This document shows, piece after piece, positions 126 to 12,404 of a stretch of DNA of 62,202 bases. How positions within the stretch are numbered: the stretch's first letter is position 1; the number at the start of each line of letters is the position of its first letter. The position numbers and the translations under genes are program-made. The notes beneath the pieces are model-generated. The model was given only the letters and a program-made list of their open reading frames with translations. It was not told the DNA's origin and searched no databases. Source of the DNA: an uncultured Bacteroidota bacterium (GTDB lineage: Bacteria; Bacteroidota; Bacteroidia; Chitinophagales; Chitinophagaceae); the NCBI GenBank assembly GCA_903926855.1, contig CAIYKV010000254.1, positions 1-62,202 on the forward strand. Direction: 5' to 3'.

Positions 126-1490
126 TTAGCCTCTTAGATGCCAGGCTTTTGGCCGGGTAAATACCCGTAATCCGGCGTGAGATAAAGTACTGCCAAATCC
201 ACTATGTTTTCTTCCGCTCCAGGGTAGAGCAGCGCTAACTCTGTCACAACAATTCCAGTAAACTGTACCCACATTTAGTTGCTCCTCAATCCGGGCAGCC
301 CTTGACTGGTTATTGGAATAAACGGAAGCGGTTAGTCCATATTCCGTATCGTTCATGAGCCGGACGGCTTCCTCATCACCGCTAACTTTCATGATTCCGA
401 TAATGGGTCCGAAAGATTCTTCTTTCATAACCTCCATTTCATGCGTCACATTTACCAGCACGGTAGGCGCAAAATAATTGCCCGCCCTGTTTAGTTGCTT
501 ACCCCCCAAGGCAACCGAAGACCCCTTTTTTACTGCATCTGCTACCTGTGCCGTTAAGAGCTGTACCTGCTCCTTTCTGGTAAGTGCGGCTATATAAACA
601 TTTTCTTCGGTAGGCAAACCTATCTGATAAGAAGCCACTTCTTTTAGAAATGCTTCCAGATAGGCATCGTATACTTTTTCATGCACATAAATACGTTCTA
701 CCGAACAACAACTCTGTCCGTTATTATAAAATACCCCATCAGCTGTTCCGGCTGCAACAGCGGCAATATCGATAATATCATCTGTTACATATAAGGGGTC
801 TTTACCGCCCAGTTCCAGTCCGCATGGCACCATATATTTACTCACCCGCTCATAAATATGCTTACCGGTTTTATAAGACCCGGTAAAAAAATATCCGTCC
901 AGTCTTTCCTCCAGTACCTGCTCTCCCACATCCCCCGCACCAATAACAGCTTGAAACACATTTACCGGAACACCTGCTTCGTGTAAATATTTTTGTATCT
1001 CTAAACCGGTTAGACTGGCCAGTTCAGATGGTTTGTATAGCACGGCATTACCGGCCAGGAGGGCAGGAACGAATACATTGGTCCCCACCAGATAAGGATA
1101 ATTCCAGGCAGAGATATTGGCTACCACTCCCAAAGGTTCGTATACAATCTTTTCTTTTGTACCTCCTTCTTCAACCATCCATTCCGGACGTAAGTATTTT
1201 TCTGCATTAGTGGTAAGCCAGTCAATTCTTGCACAAGCCCCTTTGATTTCATTAATGGATTGCTGCAGGGGTTTACCAGTTTCTGCGGTTAAGATTTCTG
1301 CTAGCGAGCTGATATTGTTTGTAAGCAAAATGGCAAACTGTTGTAATAGGGTAATCCTGACAGCCAGATCAGTACCATTCCATTCTTTTTGACCGATACG
1401 AAGCCTGTTTATTTTTTCTGAGATGCTGGCATGGGTATCTGTATCAAGTATAGTAATCAGTTCGTCAGTGGCCGGATTAAAAATTTTCAT
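126..1490 (-). CDS. NAD(P)-dependent aldehyde dehydrogenase
   Basis: This 454-residue protein belongs to the aldehyde dehydrogenase superfamily, which oxidises aldehydes to acids with NAD(P). Visible landmarks are the Asn of AWNYP (about residue 130), the cofactor-binding Lys of LYKPSE (153), the FFTGS glycine motif (201-205), the general base in ELGGK (Glu226) and the nucleophile in GQSC (Cys261). I start it at the ATG at 1490, where MKIFNPATDE matches the usual N-terminus; the open frame runs further upstream, but only through the 3' end of the preceding gene. It overlaps that gene by 14 bases and is the last gene of a five-gene operon. By position it should oxidise a gamma-glutamylated amino aldehyde, as PuuC does in the E. 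coli putrescine pathway. The family call is secure; the substrate is inferred from context. Confidence 0.93.
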   Translation of the reverse strand: MKIFNPATDELITILDTDTHASISEKINRLRIGQKEWNGTDLAVRITLLQQFAILLTNNISSLAEILTAETGKPLQQSINEIKGACARIDWLTTNAEKYLRPEWMVEEGGTKEKIVYEPLGVVANISAWNYPYLVGTNVFVPALLAGNAVLYKPSELASLTGLEIQKYLHEAGVPVNVFQAVIGAGDVGEQVLEERLDGYFFTGSYKTGKHIYERVSKYMVPCGLELGGKDPLYVTDDIIDIAAVAAGTADGVFYNNGQSCCSVERIYVHEKVYDAYLEAFLKEVASYQIGLPTEENVYIAALTRKEQVQLLTAQVADAVKKGSSVALGGKQLNRAGNYFAPTVLVNVTHEMEVMKEESFGPIIGIMKVSGDEEAVRLMNDTEYGLTASVYSNNQSRAARIEEQLNVGTVYWNCCDRVSAALPWSGRKHSGFGSTLSHAGLRVFTRPKAWHLRG

Positions 1491-2198
1491 AGAGTGATTT
1501 ATTTGCTTCTGATAAAAACCAGGCAAGGATATTTTCAGAAAGAGGATTTGTTTTTTTATCATCCATTCTTTCGGGATGCCATTGCACGCCCAGTAGTGGG
1601 GATTTATTGTAAGGGTCTTTCCATTCAACGCCTTCAATAACACCATCATCCGTTGAAACCGCATTTACTACCAGGCTATCTGAAATCAGGTCAATGGCCT
1701 GGTGATGTGCGCTATTCACTTCTCCGGATAAACGACCGCTGATTGAAAACAGTAAGCTGTTTTCGGCAATCGTAATTGTGTGAAGACCATCTTTATCTTC
1801 TTTTCTTTTGTGATCCTGTTTCCCTGCTTCTTCCAAATCAGGAACCAGGGATCCACCCAGATAAGTATTGAGTAATTGCAATCCGCGACAGATAGCGAGT
1901 ATCGGTAAACGATTTTCTATGGCTAGTTGAAGAATCTTCATTTCAAAAATATCCCTTTCCTTATTCCATTCTTTGGGCATATTCGGATAACGGGTTCTCT
2001 GGCTATTATAAAAAGCGGGTGTTATATCTACACCACCGGATAACAGAATACCCTGACATCTTTTTACATCATCCGTATTTTGTGTTTCATAGGAAAGGGT
2101 AATCAGGTCAATCGCGGCATCCTCGTCCAAATCCAGTCAAGATAATTTTGAAACCTGGATTCTGTTGCTGTTATTCCTATGGTTATTGTTTTTGTCAT
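1477..2198 (-). CDS. Class I glutamine-amidotransferase-like gamma-glutamyl hydrolase (PuuD-like), apparent frameshift
   Basis: The protein resembles gamma-glutamyl-GABA hydrolases (peptidase family C26). The long frame shows LSGGVD, the nucleophile Cys in AICRGLQLLN, SAHHQAID, and the His/Glu pair in GVQWHPE. The natural ATG appears to be at 2198, three bases after the upstream dehydrogenase stop, and gives MTKTITIGITATESRFQNYL, the N-terminus expected for this family. That frame hits TGA near 2106, while the conserved remainder (LDEDAAIDLIT onward) is in another frame that is open from a TTG at 2130. So one base appears lost, or two gained, around 2120-2135. This could be a real mutation, a sequencing error, or programmed shifting; I see no slippery heptamer. 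The stop overlaps the next gene start by 14 bases. The role would be to release glutamate from the gamma-glutamyl product. Confidence 0.8.
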
Positions 2199-2201
2199 GA
2201 T

Positions 2202-3341
2202 TTATAGTGCGGATTCATAAAGTGTTTTAAAATCAGCACGAGTTACCGGCTTTGGGTTATTGGGATGTGCAAAATCTGCAAATGCAAGATCTGCGAGTGT
2301 ATCTATATGTTTTGTTTCAACCCCAACTTCCCTAAGCTTATTAGGAATATGAACGCGTGAATTCAAATCAAAAAGATATTCTACAACACCTTCCCCGGTT
2401 TCATTTTTCAGTTCTAATGCGTGCGCGATGCGTATAAATTTTTCTTCTGAACCAATTATATTAAATCGCATACCGTAAGGCAGGTTTACTGCATTGGCTA
2501 ATCCATGGTGTGTATCCAGCAATGCAGACATAGGATGTGCCAGGGAATGAACTACGCCCAATCCTTTCTGAAACGCAATCGCCCCCATCATCGAAGCAAG
2601 CAGCATATCTGAACGGGAGGCAAGGGTTGGGGCATTCACTGCCTGTTCTAATGAGCCTGCTATCAGCCGGATTCCTTCAAGGGCAATTCCATCGCATATC
2701 GGATGATAATTTTTTGCGAGAAATGCTTCCATATTATGAGTTAACGCATCCATGCCAGTTGCAGCAGTGACAAATGGAGGCAAGTCCATAGTAAGCAAAG
2801 GATCCGCAAAAACAATTTTAGCGAGCAATTTTGGAGAGAACAATATTTTTTTCTGATGGGTATCATCGTCTGCAATTATTGCCGACCTGCCCACTTCACT
2901 TCCTGTTCCCGCAGTAGTAGGAATGGTAATAAAATGTGGCACTTCATTCGTAACATAGATATCACCACCAATCAGGTCATCGTATTTGAAAAGATCTTCG
3001 CGATGATTGATACGTAACAAAATTGCCCTGGCCACATCAATCGCGGCGCCTCCGCCAATTCCTATAATACAATCGGATTGTGAGGAATCGAATACTTCAG
3101 TGCCTTTATATACATCAGATTTAACAGGATTCTTATGCATATCATGAAATACTGTTACTAAAAATCCTTTTGCAGAAAGATCCGTTACAATTTTTTTAAA
3201 AAAAGACAATCCTGCGATAGTAGGATCTGTAACAATCAATGGTTTTTGTAACTGATTGGTTTTTAAATAAGCAGGTAGTTCCTCTACAGCACCCGCACCA
3301 AAACGGATAATCGTTGGAAAATTAAATTGTGAAACAGGCAT
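2202..3341 (-). CDS. Iron-containing alcohol dehydrogenase
   Basis: This 379-residue protein belongs to the group III (iron-type) alcohol dehydrogenases. It has the NAD-binding GIGGGAAIDVARA stretch (about 94-106), TAGTGSEVG, and the metal ligands Asp198, His202, His265 and His279. The ligand spacing of 4, 63 and 14 is the same as in FucO-type enzymes. The ATG at 3341 (MPVSQFNFP) is preferred over an in-frame TTG six bases upstream. It ends three bases before the amidotransferase start. An alcohol dehydrogenase is unexpected in a putrescine operon, where an FAD oxidase (PuuB) acts, but it is what would be needed to oxidise the hydroxyl of a gamma-glutamylated amino alcohol. The family is certain; the substrate is inference. 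Confidence 0.93.
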   Translation of the reverse strand: MPVSQFNFPTIIRFGAGAVEELPAYLKTNQLQKPLIVTDPTIAGLSFFKKIVTDLSAKGFLVTVFHDMHKNPVKSDVYKGTEVFDSSQSDCIIGIGGGAAIDVARAILLRINHREDLFKYDDLIGGDIYVTNEVPHFITIPTTAGTGSEVGRSAIIADDDTHQKKILFSPKLLAKIVFADPLLTMDLPPFVTAATGMDALTHNMEAFLAKNYHPICDGIALEGIRLIAGSLEQAVNAPTLASRSDMLLASMMGAIAFQKGLGVVHSLAHPMSALLDTHHGLANAVNLPYGMRFNIIGSEEKFIRIAHALELKNETGEGVVEYLFDLNSRVHIPNKLREVGVETKHIDTLADLAFADFAHPNNPKPVTRADFKTLYESAL

Positions 3342-3483
3342 AATCAATAATGTGTTTAATCAATAACTGGTGTTTCTAGTGGCATGCAGTTAGCATCCTG
3401 ACCTAGCTTTCAAATAATGACAGGATAACGCTGATACAAACCTAAGCGCAAAAAAAGGATATGACAAGCAATCAGAAAGAAGT

Positions 3484-4842
3484 TTATATTATTTCAAAGT
3501 AACGTTTTAGCTCCCAGTCAGTAACTACTTTGGCAAACTGCTTTACCTCCCATTCGCGGGTTTGGGTAAAATGTTGTACAAAAACCTCGCCGAATAATTC
3601 TTTTGCAATGGCAGATGTTTTCATTAAGTGTGTAGCTTCATCTAAACTTTTTGGAAACCGGCCATTGGATAGATCCTGGTATCCATTACCCGCAGTTGCA
3701 GGTTGTTTGAGTGTTAATTTTTTTCGGATCCCATACAAACCGGCCGCTAAACAAGCAGCCATGGCCAGATAAGGGTTGGTATCACTACCTACCACCCTGG
3801 TTTCAAGCCGACAGGATTTTTTCCCTTCTGTAAGTGCCCGTAAGGCAACGGTTCGGTTGTCCATTCCCCAGGTAACGGTTGTGGGTGCCCAAGCGCCTTC
3901 TACCAATCGCTTATATGAATTAATGGTAGGTGCTACCATGGGTAATATATGTGGCAGACAATATAATTGTCCGGCCAGGTAACTTTTCATTAACGGACTC
4001 ATCCTTTGTTTATCCTTTGCATCATGAAACAGGTTATTTTGGGAACGCTTATCCCATAACGACTGGTGAACATGCCCACTACATCCCGGCAGGTTTTCGC
4101 TGAATTTTGCCATAAATGTGGCCATGATTCCGTTTAGTCCGGCTATTTCTTTAACAGCAGTTTTAAAAAGAACGGCCCGGTCTGCAGAGGTAAGTATATC
4201 TCCAAAAGTAATGGCAGCTTCATACACACCCGGACCAGTTTCGGTATGCAGGCCTTCTAGCGGGATACCAAATTTTTTCATGAGATCAAAAAGGTCAGAA
4301 AAAAAATCGTTTCGTTCTGTACTCCGTAATATGGAATACCCAAACATTCCAGGGGTAAGCGGGGTAAGGTTTCTGCCTCCTTTGTCTGCAAAGGAATGAG
4401 AGGTTTCTGCAAAATTAAACCATTCAAATTCCTGTGAAAACTTAGCGGTATATCCGGCTTTGGAAGCCTGGACGATTACTTTCTGTAAAACCTGTCTCGG
4501 ACAAATCGCCAGTGGATTTCCTTTTGCATCAATAAATTCACCCAGAAAAAAGGGAATATCATTTTCCCAGGGTATTTTTCGGAAACTATTGAGAATGATT
4601 TTCAATTTTGCATCCGGGTAACCGGTATGCCAGCCTGTATAACTCGCATTATCATAAGCAGCATCATTCATATCCCACCCGAATACTACATCACAAAAAC
4701 CCAGATCCGTTTCGGCAACCGACAAAAATTTTTCGGCAGAAATATACTTGCCTCTAAGTACTCCATCAATATCCGATACAGCAATCTTAACCCTCCCGGA
4801 AGGATGTTGTTTTACATAATTGAAGATAGACTGAGTATTCAT
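3484..4842 (-). CDS. Glutamine-synthetase-like gamma-glutamyl ligase (PuuA/GlnA4 type)
   Basis: This 452-residue protein has the full catalytic architecture of the glutamine synthetase superfamily: metal-binding Glu residues in SQEFEWF (138/140) and HTETGPGVYE (201/208), GCSGHVHQS at 253-261, the NSYKRL arginine (about 312), and NPYLAMAA near 356. Length and motif spelling fit the PuuA/FluG-like branch, which joins glutamate to amines at ATP cost, rather than assimilatory GlnA. The start ATG at 4842 overlaps the permease stop by four bases (ATGA), indicating translational coupling. Streptomyces GlnA4, a gamma-glutamylethanolamide synthetase, is the best functional parallel given the permease and iron dehydrogenase alongside. 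It is followed by about 140 bases without a gene before the dehydrogenase. Confidence 0.88.
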   Translation of the reverse strand: MNTQSIFNYVKQHPSGRVKIAVSDIDGVLRGKYISAEKFLSVAETDLGFCDVVFGWDMNDAAYDNASYTGWHTGYPDAKLKIILNSFRKIPWENDIPFFLGEFIDAKGNPLAICPRQVLQKVIVQASKAGYTAKFSQEFEWFNFAETSHSFADKGGRNLTPLTPGMFGYSILRSTERNDFFSDLFDLMKKFGIPLEGLHTETGPGVYEAAITFGDILTSADRAVLFKTAVKEIAGLNGIMATFMAKFSENLPGCSGHVHQSLWDKRSQNNLFHDAKDKQRMSPLMKSYLAGQLYCLPHILPMVAPTINSYKRLVEGAWAPTTVTWGMDNRTVALRALTEGKKSCRLETRVVGSDTNPYLAMAACLAAGLYGIRKKLTLKQPATAGNGYQDLSNGRFPKSLDEATHLMKTSAIAKELFGEVFVQHFTQTREWEVKQFAKVVTDWELKRYFEII

Positions 4843-6137
4843 CTTTTGAATAATTTAAATGCCAGGTAAAAAAATATCAATAATCCAAAATATAAAGTAG
4901 CCAGAAAAGCATTGTAGTAACATAAAGCAGTTAACGACAATATGGCCAGTACTAAGGCAATGATGGGTGTAAATGGATAGAAAGGAACCTTGAATGGTCT
5001 TGGCAATGAAGGTTCATTTTTTCTAAGACGGATAAGCGAAAGCATAGAAATTATATACAAGGTAACCGCACCAAATACAGAGAGAATAATGATTTCAGCG
5101 GTTCTACCGGTACAAACAATGACTATCCCCAATACCGCATTACAGATTAACGCATTGGCGGGTGTTTGAAATTTTGGATGAATAGTGCCCAATAGTTTTG
5201 GAGCATTGCCAATTTTGCCAAATTCAAAACTGGCTCTTCCGCTCGCTAAGAGCAGTCCATGAAAAGAAGCGATCAATCCAAATAAACCAATACCGATTAG
5301 CAATTTATAATATACATGGTCGGGAGAAAATAATTTCCCCAGCGCCAATGGCAACGGAGAATCGGAGCTTTCACCGTTTTTCAGGTAAACGATATTCTCC
5401 CATCCCCCTACACCTATTGAGGCGATGAATACCAATACACAAAGAATTACCAAAGTGAGGATGGCCCAACCAAATCCTTTTACAATATCTTTTTGTGGAT
5501 TCAGACTTTCTTCGGCAACGTTGGCTACGCCTTCTATTCCCAAAAAGAACCAGATCGCAAAAGGTAAGGCTGCAAAAGCCCCGGCCCAGCCATGGGGGAA
5601 TGCATTATGCACAAACTGTGTGCTAGAAAAATGAGGTAATGTTAATCCGGAAAATAAGAGCAACTCCCCAACCGCTAAAATTGTAACCGCTAATTCGAAA
5701 CCGGCTGCTGCTTTTACTCCGTAAATATTTAATGCCGTAAAAAACAAATACACCATGATAGCCCCGGCAATAACGGGTATTTGCGGAAAAGCCAGATTGA
5801 AATATGTACCAATGGCAATGGCAATGGCCGGAGGTGCAAATACAAATTCAATGATTTGTGCGATTCCGGCAATAAAACCCAGGTCGTTTTTAAAAGCTTT
5901 TTCCGCATAATCATAAGCACCTCCTGCTTTAGGAATGGCGCAGGCAAGCTCAGCATATGAAAAACTAAAACAGGTATACAGAATGATTACAAAAAATGTG
6001 GCGATAGCCAAACCATAAACACCACCTTTTTCAAGTCCGAGGTTCCAGCCAAAATACATTCCTGATATTACATAACCCACGCCCAGTCCCCAAAGTAATG
6101 CCGGAGTAAGGGTGCGTTTTAAGGTAGGGGTTGACAT
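4839..6137 (-). CDS. APC-family amino acid/ethanolamine permease
   Basis: This 432-residue integral membrane protein has about 12 hydrophobic segments and belongs to the amino acid-polyamine-organocation superfamily. The N-terminal pattern GLGVGYVISGMYFGWNLGL with IPKAGGAYDYAEKAF and LPHF is very close to what I know of ethanolamine permeases (Eat), more so than to PuuP. It is first in a five-gene operon, overlapping the ligase by four bases, and probably imports the substrate that the ligase then glutamylates. No dedicated regulator lies next to it; the 191-base gap to the divergent gene at 6329 must hold the promoter, but no clear TAnnTTTG box was seen on this strand. Confidence 0.88.
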   Translation of the reverse strand: MSTPTLKRTLTPALLWGLGVGYVISGMYFGWNLGLEKGGVYGLAIATFFVIILYTCFSFSYAELACAIPKAGGAYDYAEKAFKNDLGFIAGIAQIIEFVFAPPAIAIAIGTYFNLAFPQIPVIAGAIMVYLFFTALNIYGVKAAAGFELAVTILAVGELLLFSGLTLPHFSSTQFVHNAFPHGWAGAFAALPFAIWFFLGIEGVANVAEESLNPQKDIVKGFGWAILTLVILCVLVFIASIGVGGWENIVYLKNGESSDSPLPLALGKLFSPDHVYYKLLIGIGLFGLIASFHGLLLASGRASFEFGKIGNAPKLLGTIHPKFQTPANALICNAVLGIVIVCTGRTAEIIILSVFGAVTLYIISMLSLIRLRKNEPSLPRPFKVPFYPFTPIIALVLAILSLTALCYYNAFLATLYFGLLIFFYLAFKLFKR

Positions 6138-6328
6138 GGAAGTAATTTAGGATATTCGACTGATTTTTTGGAAGATGTCATAAAATATTATGTTTATGAT
6201 TTCCAGTAACCGACTGAGGCAAACGGAAAATAATTTCTCTATTCTGTTAAAGAACTACTTTATTTTTCTATCTGTATACCGGAAATAGATGTTTTTCTTA
6301 TCTTTTAAAAGCCAAGAGTGGAAATAAC

Positions 6329-7600
6329 ATGAAACGAACTTGCTTGTTTTTGCTTTTATTTGTTTACGCCTTTTCAGCTCAATCTCAATACACGATTTCT
6401 GGAAAAGTGATCAATGCAGATACCAAAGAGCCGGTTCCACTTGCAGCGGTTTTTTTGAGTCATACTTCTTTTGGTGTAACAACAGATGCAGACGGGCGAT
6501 TCCGACTAAAAAGAATACCACAAGGTCGTTTTGAGCTGATTGTTTCTTTAGTAGGTTTTGGAACGTACACGCAACTGATGCGTTCGGATAAGATTTCAGG
6601 GGATATGACGATTCTTCTGAAACCACAAACCGCCGGACTTCCCGACCTTGTGCTAGACCCGATTGAGAAAGGTGGTTGGGAAAAATACGGACAATTTTTC
6701 CTGGACAATTTTATTGGTACTTCTTTTTATTCTACAGGTTGCACACTAACCAATCCGGAAGTCATCCGATTTCGAAAAAGTAGTCATAGCAATACCCTAA
6801 ACGCATTTGCTAACAGTCCACTGGTAATTGTGAATGAATCTTTGGGATATACCATTCAATATCAAATGGAGGAATTTGAGTATGATTATAATACGCATAT
6901 TTTGGTGCTAAATGGTTATCCACTTTTTAAGGATATGTCTCAGGGCAAATCAGGCGCCAAAATCCGAAAATGGCAGGAAAGAAGGAAAGATGTTTATGAA
7001 GGATCTCTCATGCATTTTATGAGAGCATTTTTTACCAATCAGTTGGAAAAACAGGGTTTTGAAATGAGAAGCCTTACAAAAGTTCAAAACAGTTTAAAAG
7101 AGAAGGCGAGACAAATATTCAAAGCCAATCCAGATACAATTGTACATACAGTTATTAAATGGCAGGTATTGAAAGGGCAACAGGTAATTGATTCTACAAA
7201 ACGGATAGACTCTACTTCCGTATATAAAAAAGCATTACTACAACCCGATTCTATTATCAGTTTTGCCATTGTGCCGGCAGACAGTATCGGTTTTGCAATT
7301 GATTCTTCAACGGCAGGAATGTATTTTAAAGACTCTTTACAGGTAACCTATTTACTCAAAAAAGCACCTCTGGAATATAAACGGATTTCGAGGGAACATC
7401 GGTTTGATGAGCACCCTGTATCTGAAATATCCTTATTGAATCAGCATGCAATTTCTGTATTGTATAATGGTTTTTATTTTGGAGCACATGATTTAAAAAC
7501 ACGAAAATTCTGGGCATGGTGGGAAACCATGGCCACTTTACTTCCTTATGATTACTGGCCACCCAAAAAATTCGAAAAATTTACTCAATTATCCTTTTAA
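6329..7600 (+). CDS. Exported protein with CarboxypepD_reg-like domain
   Basis: This 423-residue protein has a signal peptide (MKRTCLFLLLFVYAFSAQSQ), so it is exported. Residues 21-95 form a carboxypeptidase-regulatory-like beta-sandwich (YTISGKVINADTKEPVP, then TTDADGRFRLKRIPQG), a module common at the N-termini of Bacteroidota outer-membrane proteins. The remaining 330 residues contain no motif I can name, and there is no TonB plug/barrel, so it is not a SusC-type receptor. A small hairpin follows the stop, and the barrel protein starting at 7738 lies on the same strand, so the two may share a surface role. Function unknown. Confidence 0.8.
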   Translation: MKRTCLFLLLFVYAFSAQSQYTISGKVINADTKEPVPLAAVFLSHTSFGVTTDADGRFRLKRIPQGRFELIVSLVGFGTYTQLMRSDKISGDMTILLKPQTAGLPDLVLDPIEKGGWEKYGQFFLDNFIGTSFYSTGCTLTNPEVIRFRKSSHSNTLNAFANSPLVIVNESLGYTIQYQMEEFEYDYNTHILVLNGYPLFKDMSQGKSGAKIRKWQERRKDVYEGSLMHFMRAFFTNQLEKQGFEMRSLTKVQNSLKEKARQIFKANPDTIVHTVIKWQVLKGQQVIDSTKRIDSTSVYKKALLQPDSIISFAIVPADSIGFAIDSSTAGMYFKDSLQVTYLLKKAPLEYKRISREHRFDEHPVSEISLLNQHAISVLYNGFYFGAHDLKTRKFWAWWETMATLLPYDYWPPKKFEKFTQLSF

Positions 7601-7614
7601 CCTATACTCACTTC

Positions 7615-7630
7615 TCATCAGAAATGATGA
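7615..7630 (+). terminator. Weak hairpin after the CarboxypepD_reg gene
   Basis: TCATCA-GAAA-TGATGA forms a six-pair stem with a GAAA tetraloop, followed by an AT-rich run. It lies 15 bases after the stop at 7600. The stem is short and AT-rich, so this is only a possible terminator. Confidence 0.3.
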
Positions 7631-7737
7631 ATTTAATTATTTAAAAATTGCACTTTGGCTTAAAATACCATTAACTCTTTTTTGATAGCAAAGCAAAAGT
7701 TACATTGCATCTTATAATCTTATACAAGACAGTCACA

Positions 7738-8970
7738 TTGAAATATCTAACGTGTTTCCTTTTTTTAGTGGTTTCATTTTTTGAAACAAATGCTCAATCG
7801 ACTAATACAAAGGATTCCTTGAGTAAAATTGCTTCGGATAGCCTCAAGAAAACAAATGAAATAGATCTGCTGGATATCATTCAAAAAGTAATCAGGCCCC
7901 ATGCACCACCGAGAACCGATGACGGCGAATCCAGGATTGGTAAGTTTCATACTTCAGTATTACCTGCCGCTCAATACACTTTACAAACAGGATTTGCTGC
8001 AGAAATCGTAGCCAATACTGCTTTTTATACAAGCGATCAGTCTGACGAAAATATTTCGAGTTTTCTTACGAGTATTAACTATACACAGAAAAAGCAATTT
8101 TTTGTACCGATTGAAGGTAGTATTTGGATGAAAGGTAATAAGGCCAATATCCTTACTGACTGGCATTACGAAAAATTTCCTCAATCTACCTATGGACTGG
8201 GCGGCATGACGACTGTTGCCAATCAATATACTATTGATTATAACTATATCAGATTGTATCAGGCATATATGAAAGTAATTTCACCCGATCTTTATCTGGG
8301 TATGGGCTATGATTTGGATTATTATTGGAATATTCAGGAAGTAGATCCCCCTGCAGGAGTGGTTACAGATTTTCAGAAATATGGGTTTTCGAAAAAATCG
8401 GTTGCGTCGGGGATTACACTAAATTTTTTATACGATGCCAGAAGAAATTCCATTAACCCCGAACCAGGCTATTATACGAATATAGTATTGAGAAATAATT
8501 TCACCTTTCTGGGTAGCGATCAAAACTGGCAATCATTGCTGATAGATGCCAGAAAGTATGTTCATTTTCCGGAGGGCTCTAAAAACACACTCGCATTCTG
8601 GACATATGATTGGTTTAATATCAGTGGCAAAGCACCGTATTTGAATCTGGCAAGTACCGCCAGTGATACCTATCTGAATATGGGCAGGGGGTATATACAG
8701 GGACGTTTCCGCGGACAAAATCTGCTATATGGTGAATCTGAATACCGGATGAATATCAGCAGGAATCGAATGTTTGGCGCTGTGGTTTTTTTGAATGCAC
8801 AGAGTTATACTGAGCCGTTAACTAAGCAGTTTCAAACCGTTTTACCCGGGTATGGTTTGGGAATCAGGGTTAAGCTAAATAAATTTTCAAGAACGTTTAT
8901 TGCATTGGATTATGGATGGGGGCTGCATGGTTCTCAGGGAATTTTTGCCAATCTGGGTGAAGTGTTTTAA
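7738..8970 (+). CDS. BamA/TamA-like outer-membrane beta-barrel protein, paralogue 1
   Basis: This protein of about 410 residues looks like the C-terminal barrel of the bacterial surface antigen (D15/Omp85) superfamily without POTRA domains. After a signal-like N-terminus (KYLTCFLFLVVSFFETNAQS) it shows alternating aromatic strands typical of barrels, and it ends in NLGEVF. No in-frame ATG precedes the signal peptide; TTG at 7738 fits best and another TTG at 7705 is possible. It is clearly paralogous to 20888-22153: both share YTQKKQF, PxDAYGxGG/PQSTYGLGG, FxKYGFS, LYDxRxNSINPxPG, Y(L/D)NxGRGYxQ-R and the NLGEVF end. It may insert into or transport across the outer membrane, but no substrate is indicated. 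Confidence 0.72.
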   Translation: MKYLTCFLFLVVSFFETNAQSTNTKDSLSKIASDSLKKTNEIDLLDIIQKVIRPHAPPRTDDGESRIGKFHTSVLPAAQYTLQTGFAAEIVANTAFYTSDQSDENISSFLTSINYTQKKQFFVPIEGSIWMKGNKANILTDWHYEKFPQSTYGLGGMTTVANQYTIDYNYIRLYQAYMKVISPDLYLGMGYDLDYYWNIQEVDPPAGVVTDFQKYGFSKKSVASGITLNFLYDARRNSINPEPGYYTNIVLRNNFTFLGSDQNWQSLLIDARKYVHFPEGSKNTLAFWTYDWFNISGKAPYLNLASTASDTYLNMGRGYIQGRFRGQNLLYGESEYRMNISRNRMFGAVVFLNAQSYTEPLTKQFQTVLPGYGLGIRVKLNKFSRTFIALDYGWGLHGSQGIFANLGEVF

Positions 8971-9022
8971 GAACTCTTCATCGATAGGCTAACAATCCTA
9001 ACAGTTTTTCAGAAAAAGCTTA

Positions 9023-9661
9023 CTACACATATTCAAATTTTTCTAAAAACCCATCTTTCATCATCTCAGCAATAAAAGATTCGTGATTTTTGGCATGCCC
9101 CTGGGTTTCCCAGGTAATTGAAATCAAGGAATTTTCTTTTAGTTGTTTGGTGAGTTTATACACAAGTCGATGATTTTTCAGGATCTCTTCATAACGGGTT
9201 GTGGTATTTTCTGAAAAAGGACAAGCAATTGAATACACTTTCGACTGGTTCATTCTTTCAATAATATTTTCAAAATAGGGCAATACCGCCAGTACAAAGA
9301 GAATAAGAATAGAGGCACTGGCAGCCGGAAAATAATATCCCGCCCCAATACCCATACCTACAGCTGCAACTGCCCAAATGGTAGCAGCTGTAGTGATCCC
9401 ATTGATTCTGTTTTCGCCACGAAAAATAACACCGGCACCCAGGAACCCGATTCCGGTTACAATATTGGAAGCTATTCTGTCGGGGTTGCCTGGACCTCCA
9501 ATCAATATAGACATAATGGTAAAAAAGCAGGCCCCCATTGAAATCATAATCATGGTGCGAAATCCTGCAGATTTACTTCTGTATTGTCTTTCCGAACCCA
9601 CAATTCCCCCCCATAAGGCTGCCAATAAAAAGCGGAGTAGAATTTCAACATCAAAATGCAT
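9023..9661 (-). CDS. MgtC/SapB family membrane protein
   Basis: This 212-residue protein has an N-terminal membrane domain of MgtC type: ALWGGIVGSERQ, a GFRT turn, GIGFLGAGVIFRGE and TAATIWAVAAVGMGIGAG. A soluble tail of about 80 residues follows, with an ACT-like look. The family is linked to Mg2+ limitation and to modulation of the ATP synthase in enterobacteria and mycobacteria; the role in Bacteroidota is not established. It is followed in the same direction by nothing closely spaced. The small exported protein at 9694 lies just upstream, 32 bases away, so the two may be co-transcribed. Confidence 0.9.
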   Translation of the reverse strand: MHFDVEILLRFLLAALWGGIVGSERQYRSKSAGFRTMIMISMGACFFTIMSILIGGPGNPDRIASNIVTGIGFLGAGVIFRGENRINGITTAATIWAVAAVGMGIGAGYYFPAASASILILFVLAVLPYFENIIERMNQSKVYSIACPFSENTTTRYEEILKNHRLVYKLTKQLKENSLISITWETQGHAKNHESFIAEMMKDGFLEKFEYV

Positions 9662-9693
9662 AGTCCTGATTTTATGTTTTGAGATCCGTTACC

Positions 9694-9981
9694 TTAATTC
9701 AACGGAGGCTGTGAAGGGGTATCGATTTTTTCTATAACCGGACTAATTTCATAATAATCCATCGCAATACCAATATATCTCCGGTAAATCCTTGATTTCC
9801 CATCCTTGCTTACAGTAAAGCTGGCATACTGTTGGTAAACTGAGTAAATAAAATAATTGTGAATCAGTTTCCCTTCCACACCATCAAACATCTTATACAG
9901 TTTATGTCCGGGGTTGGTTATGCCCAGAATACCTATTAACATGATACCGGCAACCAATAAAACCTGAATAAACTTTTTCAT
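9694..9981 (-). CDS. Small single-pass/exported protein, DUF4359-like
   Basis: This 95-residue protein begins MKKFIQVLLVAGIMLIGILG, a signal or anchor helix, followed by TNPG and a small soluble domain rich in Tyr and Phe. It resembles small proteins annotated as DUF4359, whose function is unknown. I take the ATG at 9981; the open frame extends to a TTG at 10002. It lies immediately upstream of the mgtC-like gene on the same strand. Confidence 0.6.
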   Translation of the reverse strand: MKKFIQVLLVAGIMLIGILGITNPGHKLYKMFDGVEGKLIHNYFIYSVYQQYASFTVSKDGKSRIYRRYIGIAMDYYEISPVIEKIDTPSQPPLN

Positions 9982-10209
9982 AAACACAATGATAGTTTGC
10001 AATAAGGGTTTATCGGATAGTTGCAGATAGGCCCCGGATATAAAGTTACGTAATAATTACGCGTATAGATAAGAATCAGGTAGTTTTGAAAGAAGGGAGA
10101 TAAATAGGAATATGCTATCTGTTTCCATTGAGCATCAGTTTTTTGTATGACCAATCTCATAGTTTAGTTTTTTTAAAATAAGCAATCTTGCAAAATAAAA
10201 AAATACCCA

Positions 10210-11505
10210 ATGACGCACCCTTTTACTTATGTATCCGCAAAAGAAGCACTCTCTGTTATTGAAAGTGGGCAGCGTGTATTTATTCATGGAGGAAGTTGTA
10301 CTCCGATATATCTTTTGCATGAGTTGGCCAAGGAAAAAGACAGGTTGAAAGATGTAGAACTGGTTTCTATTACCCTTAAAGGAGATATTGAACTGGATAA
10401 ACCTGGTTACCAGTCCGCCTTTCATATAAATTCCCTTTTTGTTTCACCTTCTGTTCGTCAGGCTGTATCAGAAGGAAGAGCGGATTTTGTGCCTGTTTTC
10501 TTAAGTGATATTCCCGATCTGTTTAAAAGAAAGATACTGGCCATTGATGTTGCCATCGTACATGTTTCACCTCCGGATAGTCATGGATATTGCTCTCTCA
10601 GCCTTTCTATTGATATTGCCCGCTCTGCCGTAGATAGCGCGAAAACAGTGATCGCATTGGTTAATCCAGATCTTCCCAGAACCCATGGGGATGGAATGAT
10701 ACATACCGACAGGTTTGCAAAAATGGTATATCATCCTGCCAAAGCTTATGAAGAAGATTACGGAAAAAAAGTAGGTGAAACAGAAATGACCATTGGTAAA
10801 AATGTTGCCGAGTTGATAGATGATGGAAGTACGATACAAATGGGTATTGGCACCATTCCTGATGCGGTACTTAAATACCTGAGTGGGCATCGTGACCTGG
10901 GTGTGCATACGGAAATGTTGAGTAATGGAATCATTGATCTGGTTGAAAGCGATGTGATCAATAATAAAAAGAAAAAAATTCATCCGAATAAAACAGTTAC
11001 TTCTTTTGCTGTGGGTAGCCAGAAATTATATGATTACCTGAACGATAATCCCGCTTTTTCTTTTCTGGATATAGACTATGTAAATGACCCGCATGTTATA
11101 CGCCGTAACCCCAAAGTAATTGCTATTAACAGCGCCATTGAAGTTGACCTTACGGGACAGGTTTGTGCGGATAGCATTGGAGAACTGCAGTTTAGTGGTA
11201 TTGGAGGGCAAATGGATTTTATGCGGGGGGCCGCATTAAGTGAAGGGGGAAAACCCATTATTGCCCTGAGTAGCCGAACCGCTAAAGGAGTTCCCCGTAT
11301 TGTACCCTGTCTTAAACAAGGCGCGGGTGTAGTAACTACCCGGGGGCATGTGCATTATGTAGTTACGGAATATGGCAGTACCTTTTTATTTGGTAAAAAC
11401 CTGCGCCAAAGAGCGCAGGCTCTGATAAATATATCTCACCCCGATGACAGAGAGCTGCTTACTAAATACTGTTTTGAAAGATTTAAAATATTCCTGCCAT
11501 CATAG
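10210..11505 (+). CDS. Acetyl-CoA hydrolase/4-hydroxybutyrate CoA-transferase family protein
   Basis: This 431-residue protein matches the Cat1/AbfT family of CoA-transferases, which move CoA between acyl groups through a glutamyl thioester. The glycine loops MGIGTIPDAVL (about 211-221) and SGIGGQMDF (about 329-337) and the GVHTEMLSNG segment (Glu235, the likely nucleophile by comparison with AbfT) are present. Substrates cannot be fixed from sequence: acetate/succinate, butyrate or 4-hydroxybutyrate CoA exchange are all possible. It stands alone and is followed by a strong rho-independent terminator. The length is normal and no defect is visible. Confidence 0.9.
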   Translation: MTHPFTYVSAKEALSVIESGQRVFIHGGSCTPIYLLHELAKEKDRLKDVELVSITLKGDIELDKPGYQSAFHINSLFVSPSVRQAVSEGRADFVPVFLSDIPDLFKRKILAIDVAIVHVSPPDSHGYCSLSLSIDIARSAVDSAKTVIALVNPDLPRTHGDGMIHTDRFAKMVYHPAKAYEEDYGKKVGETEMTIGKNVAELIDDGSTIQMGIGTIPDAVLKYLSGHRDLGVHTEMLSNGIIDLVESDVINNKKKKIHPNKTVTSFAVGSQKLYDYLNDNPAFSFLDIDYVNDPHVIRRNPKVIAINSAIEVDLTGQVCADSIGELQFSGIGGQMDFMRGAALSEGGKPIIALSSRTAKGVPRIVPCLKQGAGVVTTRGHVHYVVTEYGSTFLFGKNLRQRAQALINISHPDDRELLTKYCFERFKIFLPS

Positions 11506-11558
11506 TGCTTTATCGGGGTACTGATTAAGAAAAAATTTCTCAAGTTTATTTGCTTAAC

Positions 11559-11584
11559 AAAACCCGCTTATTAGGCGGGTTTTT
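11559..11584 (+). terminator. Rho-independent terminator after CoA-transferase
   Basis: ACCCGC pairs with GCGGGT around a seven-base TTATTAG loop, flanked by AAA before and a run of five T after. It lies about 55 bases downstream of the CoA-transferase stop at 11505. Confidence 0.8.
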
Positions 11585-11654
11585 GCTGATTAAGTAAAAA
11601 TTAATAGCGCAAACTGTTTCTTTTTGTTAACTTAATTACGCAAAACAATAAAAT

Positions 11655-12404
11655 ATGCGGGCACTCTTGATTCTCTTTCTTTCTTTTATTGGCTTTTTAT
11701 CAGCAAATGGGCAACAGGCAGTACTGGATGTAGTTAGCGGGTCACAGGGAGGCGCCAGTTTTGGATGGGTAAAATTTTACGATCCTGCTGCTATTGGTTC
11801 CAAGAAGGCCGAATTGATGAATTATGCAGATATTGAAGGAAGTCCATTCTGGAGTGACAAATGGACCCCGGCATTTTTATATTTAAGTGGTGGCTCTATT
11901 GTGAAACTGAAAAGTGTAAAACTCAACTTTTATACTAACCAGATACACTATTTAGACAATAATGGAACAGAATTGGTAACAGATGGTAGCCTGATTAAAA
12001 AACTGGTCTTTTTACAAAGAGAAGACAGCACCAAAGTGTTATCTATATTTGAGGCATACCCTGATTTTATTGGAAATAAGGGCCTGGCCTATTACAGGGT
12101 ATTAAATGATGGCAGGTATAGACTGCTTGAAATGAAAAAATCATTGATCACAACCGCCCCGTATGATGCATTAGCGGGAAAATCCGTCTCCTCCTTTTTT
12201 TCAAAAACCTATTATGCACTAACAAATAATGCGGAGGTGAATACATTGAAAGCGCTTAATAAAGAGGCTGTGTATGAAATCGTGCATCCGGATAGTGCTA
12301 TGGAAGACTGGGTAAAGCAAAATAAGAATAAACTAAAGAATGATACGGAAGTTCTTTCGTTCCTTGACTTTGTTAATTATTATCTGAAGAAAAAGGCGCA
12401 GTAA
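11655..12404 (+). CDS. Exported protein of unknown function
   Basis: This 249-residue protein carries a signal peptide (MRALLILFLSFIGFLSANGQ) and no family motif that I recognise. The segment SGGSIVKLKSVKLNFYTNQI with later HYLDNNG resembles proteins that record a surface or cell-envelope property, but this is not diagnostic. The C-terminal third is Lys-rich and helical. It follows the terminator of the CoA-transferase and precedes the M14 peptidase on the same strand with about 150 bases between, so it probably forms its own unit. Confidence 0.7.
   Translation: MRALLILFLSFIGFLSANGQQAVLDVVSGSQGGASFGWVKFYDPAAIGSKKAELMNYADIEGSPFWSDKWTPAFLYLSGGSIVKLKSVKLNFYTNQIHYLDNNGTELVTDGSLIKKLVFLQREDSTKVLSIFEAYPDFIGNKGLAYYRVLNDGRYRLLEMKKSLITTAPYDALAGKSVSSFFSKTYYALTNNAEVNTLKALNKEAVYEIVHPDSAMEDWVKQNKNKLKNDTEVLSFLDFVNYYLKKKAQ

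Follow-up and report, generated by a model that had tools for sequence, protein, structure and literature searches.

The stretch of DNA analysed here, hereafter the window, is a complete contig of 62,202 bases (CAIYKV010000254.1), one of 275 in the 3.54 Mb genome assembly (GCA_903926855.1, here G000; completeness 93.67%) of an uncultured bacterium of the Chitinophagaceae, in the phylum Bacteroidota. At one end of it, from 6137 to 126 on the minus strand, is a compact operon of five genes which a preliminary description had connected with the catabolism of gamma-glutamylated ethanolamine. The five genes, their common orientation, order, coordinates and families were all borne out. In order of transcription they encode an Eat-type APC permease (4839..6137, 432 amino acids), a gamma-glutamyl-amine ligase of the glutamine synthetase superfamily (3484..4842, 452 amino acids), an iron-containing alcohol dehydrogenase (2202..3341, ATG at 3341, 379 amino acids), a C26/PuuD-like amidase that is frame-broken in this assembly (1477..2198) and an aldehyde dehydrogenase (126..1490, ATG at 1490, 454 amino acids). 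The permease and ligase genes share an ATGA overlap at 4839-4842, a minus-strand spacer of 142 bases (3342..3483; earlier put at about 140) separates the ligase stop from the dehydrogenase ATG, and 3 bases lie between the dehydrogenase stop and the amidase ATG, all as previously described; the 14-base junction given for the amidase and aldehyde dehydrogenase genes is, more exactly, an overlap of 14 bases (1477-1490). The aldehyde dehydrogenase gene lies 125 bases from the contig end, placing the surroundings beyond it outside the sequence.

In the nearest relative the corresponding gap is 8 bases long; across the 63 loci that allowed a measurement it ranges from about 4 to 2625 bases. Two explanations of the spacer, a mobile insert and a structured element, were rejected: its single match in G000 is its own copy, 196 of 200 shuffled sequences fold at least as well, and its length varies widely among relatives.

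Among the NCBIfam matches listed (25 of 44 in the case of the aldehyde dehydrogenase), the sole equivalog cut-off passed was that of the ethanolamine permease model TIGR00908, with which the permease, also matching PF13520, scores 412.1 bits (cut-off 381.75). The ligase matches PF00120 and also four NCBIfam models, though none above its cut-off, scoring 217.9 bits with the GlnA model TIGR00653 (cut-off 429.15) and 186.6 bits with the PuuA model NF045547 (cut-off 650). Comparison of active-site columns shows that residues for ATP, metal and glutamate are retained, and that the column of GlnA E327, which we take to be on the ammonium side of the active site, is occupied by Trp both in the window ligase and in all 21 other Bacteroidota sequences of the same type (type 1) that were compared. 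The structure model of the ligase (pLDDT 84.5) has its top Z score to 5dm3, that is Csal_0679, tied with GlnA chains. The only other match to the glutamine synthetase family in G000 (G000:C54:15895-16407) lies in a 754-codon frame, presumably the housekeeping glutamine synthetase of type GSIII. The dehydrogenase belongs to PF00465/PF25137; its best NCBIfam model, 4-hydroxybutyrate dehydrogenase, is matched below cut-off, as is also the case for the Ruegeria enzyme. Its metal-ligand motifs look retained when the alignment is read by eye, this being the only use made of a dehydrogenase tree of 23 rows with three E. coli outgroups, in which 7 of the 20 inner forks were starred. The aldehyde dehydrogenase matches PF00171, and members of gamma-glutamyl-amine clusters score highest among the ten references that it matched.

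The amidase was earlier taken as a plain PuuD-like hydrolase; its frame break was overlooked and an intact frame was not confirmed. The ATG at 2198 and the first 23 or so codons are out of frame with a 217-codon body (2130-1477), which matches PF07722, although the N-terminus that follows this ATG is as expected. An amidase of 240 residues in the protein collection searched (P0121, with a longest contig of 10,676 bases against the 62,202 of the window) is 99% identical to the body and open throughout, and the nearest named locus (L034), with a ligase 88% identical to that of the window, has its amidase in a single open frame. The break is either a sequence error or a mutation of the strain, and the sequence data fit both alike. 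Across loci the amidase is the loosest member of the operon, with 36-69% identity in place compared with 49-88% for the other four, weak secondary hits being set aside. G000 holds four further C26 matches, all weak and perhaps other glutamine amidotransferases.

Conservation of gene order was assessed by a profile search of genome contigs with an alignment of seven ligase sequences; of 579 confirmed stretches the 80 that scored best were kept, a selection that makes these loci lean to close relatives. Two of them (L090 and L091) come from one genome and another (L082) carries the title Beijerinckiaceae. The complete five-gene order, on a single strand, is present in 50 of the 80 loci, and in 46 of the 64 with enough flanking sequence, while in 9 of the 64 the ligase is found without the other four in place. 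Named genera in which the arrangement is complete include Chitinophaga, Pedobacter, Emticicia, Lacihabitans, Solitalea, Olivibacter, Parapedobacter, Niabella, Terrimonas, Flavihumibacter and Aquirufa. Clustering of neighbouring frames revealed no sixth conserved neighbour, no further family being present in more than 11 of the 80 loci. The association of the five genes is thus more than chance, and the expectation of a conserved set is upheld. Ligase matches were also present in 11 of 60 genomes (G000 included), three of them weak (E values of 1e-4 to 8e-4) and one, in G037, to another type of ligase. Two of these genomes (G035 and G042) have the full order on one contig and G036 has it divided between two; G043 has the ligase alone and G056 the ligase with Eat only. 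The operon in the Beijerinckiaceae-titled record is complete and may reflect mis-binning or transfer. A different arrangement characterises one genus (six genomes: G062, G109, G146, G179, G239 and G267), where ligase and dehydrogenase genes adjoin on opposite strands and Eat is on another contig; the inverted pair is seen again at loci L088 and L085.

Phylogenetic analysis placed the ligase outside GlnA. Trees were built from 46 rows and from 41 of these, following removal of five long-branch rows (Streptomyces lunaelactis, Streptomyces chartreusis, Streptomyces NBC_00015, Azospirillum and Shinella, the last lying inside the larger clade of the window ligase in the 46-row tree). In the 41-row tree the window ligase is in a clade of its own (support 100/100), apart from the clade (98/98) that contains the ETAGA references Csal_0679, Ruegeria and Paracoccus. 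It is also outside the IpuC clade, itself supported at 100/100 and 100/99 in the larger and smaller trees, respectively. A sister relationship to IpuC is recovered at 97/89 in the 46-row tree, yet the approximately unbiased (AU) test gives p 0.353 for the alternative, with the window and ETAGA-containing clades as sisters (41-row tree), and we do not claim it. PuuA, on a long branch and 30% identical to the window ligase, has a branch of its own in the 46-row tree that excludes the latter; in the 41-row tree it groups with the IpuC and window clades (88/69), in no settled order. GlnA4 was represented by stand-ins, ligases of Nonomuraea and Thermomicrobium encoded beside short-chain dehydrogenase genes, and these belong to a clade other than that of the window. 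Clade members occur in further settings. At two Mucilaginibacter loci (L107 and L109, approximately 6300-12100) the ligase lies near what by eye resembles a type-II glutamine synthetase and near two further shared genes, one HAD-like by eye, without Eat or dehydrogenase; the ligase substrate may differ there. At three loci from two Emticicia and one Cytophagaceae metagenome-assembled genome (L042, L055 and L069, approximately 9360-10820) the gene after that of the ligase resembles, by eye, a GntP-like permease, again with no operon.

The partners of the permease were examined in 395 genomes of the class, searched for the ligase, Eat, the dehydrogenase and EutB. The window (type-1) ligase is present in 52, a type-2 ligase 33-36% identical to it in 6, the dehydrogenase in 41 and EutB in 16. 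Eat falls into two groups, with at least 51% identity to that of the window (46 genomes) or with 45-48% (10 genomes). Nine of the ten distant permeases lie within 4 kb of EutB, while the close ones never do so and share no genome with it. Instead, 43 of the 46 close permeases share a genome with a gamma-glutamyl ligase (38 type 1, 5 type 2), within 4 kb in 25 of the 38 type-1 cases and within 6 kb in three of the five type-2 cases. Similarly, 38 of the 41 genomes with the dehydrogenase have a type-1 ligase. All three positive pairings of ligase, close Eat and dehydrogenase give Fisher p < 1e-35, a descriptive value that ignores relatedness. EutB and the type-1 ligase are found together in seven genomes, none with the dehydrogenase, but mutual exclusion of EutB and dehydrogenase was rejected since, with 16 and 41 of 395, an absence of shared genomes is unremarkable (Fisher p 0.39). 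In five genomes (G144, G163, G301, G303 and G392) the EutB-family frames are of 779-796 codons, against 461-486 in the other eleven, and are perhaps EutB-EutC fusions; these five gave no Eat match in the 395-genome search.

Seven Bacteroidota stretches carry the type-2 ligase (L020 and L157-L162), that of G037 (L020) being assigned by its position in the ETAGA-containing clade of the tree and the others by best match, at 47-49% identity to the Thermomicrobium ligase. Three (L020, L159 and L161) combine it with Eat (61-64% identical to that of the window), a short-chain dehydrogenase (61-62% identical to the Thermomicrobium enzyme) and an aldehyde dehydrogenase; L158 has Eat and the ligase, L157 lacks Eat, and in L160 and L162 the ligase is alone among the references used. 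One permease family is thus paired with three first enzymes: EutB, a GlnA4/ETAGA-like ligase and the window ligase. The link of the first two to ethanolamine makes this, by context, the natural reading for the third pairing too.

The dehydrogenase keeps similar company beyond the phylum. A ligase of the glutamine synthetase family lies within about 6 kb of it in 22 of the 25 plasmid records listed (of 32; E value 1e-60). The other three are a Roseateles plasmid, with a permease but no ligase in the 17 kb inspected, and two (H72 and H75) outside the neighbourhood check. In Legionella lytica the ligase, aldehyde dehydrogenase, iron dehydrogenase and a glutamine amidotransferase occur together. 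Ruegeria and Paracoccus have, in this order, an RpiR regulator, an N-formylglutamate amidohydrolase, three TRAP transporter genes, ligase, aldehyde dehydrogenase and iron dehydrogenase; excerpts of PMC10132767 give the same order for Phaeobacter MED193, the last gene being named gamma-glutamylethanolamide dehydrogenase. By gene order this enzyme would also be of the iron type, although the wording 'alcohol dehydrogenase' is absent from those excerpts.

Taken together, these data lead us to regard the locus, with good though not complete confidence, as a cobalamin-independent ethanolamine catabolic operon that converts ethanolamine to glycine and glutamate. Gamma-glutamylated ethanolamine catabolism had been proposed before, and remains the best reading; the gene set is conserved and the ligase does not group with GlnA, so neither of the two computational outcomes named beforehand as speaking against it, grouping with true GlnA and a gene set scattered in relatives, was found. 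The genes, their families, the conservation of their order, their co-occurrence and the placement of the ligase are observed; the substrate, the individual activities and the order and direction of the steps are predicted as follows. Eat would import ethanolamine, which the ligase, using ATP, would join to the gamma-carboxyl of glutamate to give gamma-glutamylethanolamide; the iron dehydrogenase, a putative gamma-glutamylethanolamide dehydrogenase, would oxidise the terminal alcohol to the aldehyde with the amine still masked; the aldehyde dehydrogenase would yield gamma-glutamylglycine; and the C26 amidase would free glycine and recycle glutamate, the glycine passing to the glycine cleavage system. 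With the amine kept masked by the glutamyl cap, a microcompartment would be unneeded. The absence of any EutB match in G000, 93.67% complete, agrees with the earlier claim of a route without cobalamin, and the glycine should be usable, as the genome has a GcvP of 966 codons. Overall, ethanolamine is well supported by gene context as the probable substrate.

Several observations weigh against this assignment. The window ligase is not a member of the ETAGA/GlnA4-like clade, and ligases of its own clade are found in Emticicia and Mucilaginibacter without the operon and, together with genes for aminotransferases and polyamine-type transporters, in Pseudorhizobium and on a Rhodobacteraceae plasmid; such settings suggest that substrates may vary within the clade. 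Within the genus the ligase is present in only 3 of 36 relatives, many of them incomplete (G031, G035 and G036; a fourth, G358, comes from the 395-genome sample). Across the class, 14 of the 52 genomes with a type-1 ligase lack the dehydrogenase (seven of these 14 having EutB) and 7 of the 52 lack Eat. Of the 38 genomes in which dehydrogenase and type-1 ligase coexist, 26 have them within 4 kb of each other, six of these with the genes on opposite strands, and genes are apart in 12-13 of 38, through contig breaks or true dispersal (for example in G265). Finally, the amidase is broken in this assembly, and it is missing from the operon in G031 and from between dehydrogenase and aldehyde dehydrogenase in L086 and L111.

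The alternative that survives best, though we think it unlikely, is that the same chemistry serves one or several other primary amino alcohols, such as alaninol and 3-aminopropanol. It draws on the proximity of the ligase to IpuC in the 46-row tree, IpuC acting on isopropylamine and alaninol arising as a product further on, and on the 4-hydroxybutyrate dehydrogenase model being the best, if sub-threshold, match of the dehydrogenase. However, the sisterhood with IpuC is not firm by the AU test, secondary amino alcohols would give a ketone, making an aldehyde dehydrogenase unneeded, and the permease passes the ethanolamine model and has Bacteroidota kin that adjoin EutB or GlnA4/ETAGA-like ligases. 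Less probable still is an operon decaying in this genome, either non-functional or ending blindly at gamma-glutamylglycine. The broken amidase means that the last step may fail here, unless the break stems from a sequence error or a different amidase takes over, and the patchiness within the genus and low conservation of the amidase point the same way. Against decay, the other four frames are open, a near-identical intact amidase exists elsewhere (P0121), the relatives lacking an operon amidase suggest that another amidase may serve, and G000 has the weak C26 matches mentioned above. A Puu-like diamine or polyamine route, with the dehydrogenase acting elsewhere, is very improbable: the amidase and aldehyde dehydrogenase do resemble PuuD and PuuC, some proteobacterial ligase kin accompany polyamine-type ABC transporters and aminotransferases, and PuuA is not cleanly separated once long rows are dropped, but the permease is of ethanolamine type, the ligase is outside the PuuA branch of the 46-row tree and only distantly similar to PuuA, and the operon has neither an oxidase or aminotransferase gene nor a sixth conserved neighbour. 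Elsewhere in the window, a plus-strand open frame at 10210-11505 resembles, by eye, acetyl-CoA hydrolase/4-hydroxybutyrate CoA-transferase.

Ethanolamine derived from phosphatidylethanolamine commonly serves as a source of carbon and nitrogen, and the Bacteroidota play a major part in degrading biomass; we found little in the literature on ethanolamine use by the phylum. Extending the ethanolamine assignment beyond this locus, we lean slightly towards the view that the window clade represents a further, separately evolved ethanolamine gamma-glutamylase which, together with Eat, an iron dehydrogenase dedicated to gamma-glutamylethanolamide and a C26 amidase for gamma-glutamylglycine, would be the main B12-free means of using the phosphatidylethanolamine headgroup in environmental Bacteroidota, replaced in others by EutBC or by a GlnA4-like version with a short-chain dehydrogenase and a related Eat. 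If so, genomes and metagenomes bearing the operon (in our sample the ligase is in 52 and the dehydrogenase in 41 of 395 genomes) could be annotated for a B12-free route from ethanolamine to glycine, and their 'glutamine synthetase' and 'iron alcohol dehydrogenase' labels corrected. The swapping of first enzymes around Eat forms a testable set of natural experiments. The earlier statement that such a route is unreported for Bacteroidota holds as far as titles and abstract beginnings of the open-licence PMC literature go, where we found no report of one with the window ligase clade, Eat and C26 amidase. What would be new here, judged from sequence, is thus the phylum, the ligase clade, the amidase class and the transporter pairing.

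The chemistry itself is already known, since Phaeobacter, Chromohalobacter and Streptomyces use it or are predicted to; the Chromohalobacter salexigens pathway paper is reportedly Vetting 2015. The C. salexigens pathway is 'demonstrated' according to excerpts of PMC10132767 and 'predicted in an in silico approach' according to excerpts of PMC6529630, and a review also covers the chemistry (PMC9397018, in excerpt). For Phaeobacter MED193, the excerpts describe, from proteomics, higher levels of the cluster proteins on phosphorylethanolamine and, by measurement, binding of ethanolamine by EtoX (PMC10132767). For Streptomyces, they describe GlnA4 as a synthetase making gamma-glutamylethanolamide, supported with a mutant, with later steps predicted and a short-chain dehydrogenase proposed for the alcohol step (PMC6529630). 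Replacement of the oxidase PuuB by an alcohol dehydrogenase, earlier inferred for this operon, is therefore not new, having been proposed for both Phaeobacter and, as a short-chain enzyme, Streptomyces, and the same iron family being present in Ruegeria and Paracoccus.

Among the closest known systems is that of Phaeobacter sp. MED193 and C. salexigens (ETAGA, GETADH, GAADDH, GGAH and EtoVWX), which shares with the window operon a clustered ligase, alcohol dehydrogenase, aldehyde dehydrogenase and amidohydrolase, the same inferred intermediates and, in its Ruegeria and Paracoccus equivalents, an iron dehydrogenase and aldehyde dehydrogenase beside the ligase. It differs in having a TRAP transporter rather than Eat and a GGAH of N-formylglutamate-amidohydrolase type rather than C26 (both compared with the operon itself and not with the rest of G000), a ligase of another clade that is 34-35% identical to that of the window, and an RpiR regulator beside the cluster. 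E. coli Puu shares the logic of ligase, aldehyde dehydrogenase and C26 amidase but employs the FAD oxidase PuuB where the window operon, which contains no oxidase (PuuB was not sought elsewhere in G000), has an alcohol dehydrogenase. Paenarthrobacter clusters annotated with IpuC have ligases 39-41% and a glutamine amidotransferase 34% identical to those of the window, but combine them with a cytochrome P450, absent from the window operon, with ferredoxin and a short-chain dehydrogenase, and have no iron dehydrogenase in the stretches. A Legionella lytica plasmid encodes a ligase, dehydrogenase and aldehyde dehydrogenase 46%, 40% and 35% identical to those of the window, in a different order and with no Eat in the stretch; its class-I glutamine amidotransferase, labelled GMP synthase, was rejected as the same amidase, giving no blastp match to the window amidase body at 1e-3. 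The Streptomyces GlnA4 cluster has in common a glutamine synthetase-like ligase, an aldehyde dehydrogenase and a glutamine amidotransferase, to which some species add a putative ethanolamine permease (excerpts of PMC6529630), but a short-chain dehydrogenase takes the place of the iron enzyme. It is this cluster that the type-2 Bacteroidota set of Eat, ligase, short-chain dehydrogenase and aldehyde dehydrogenase much resembles.

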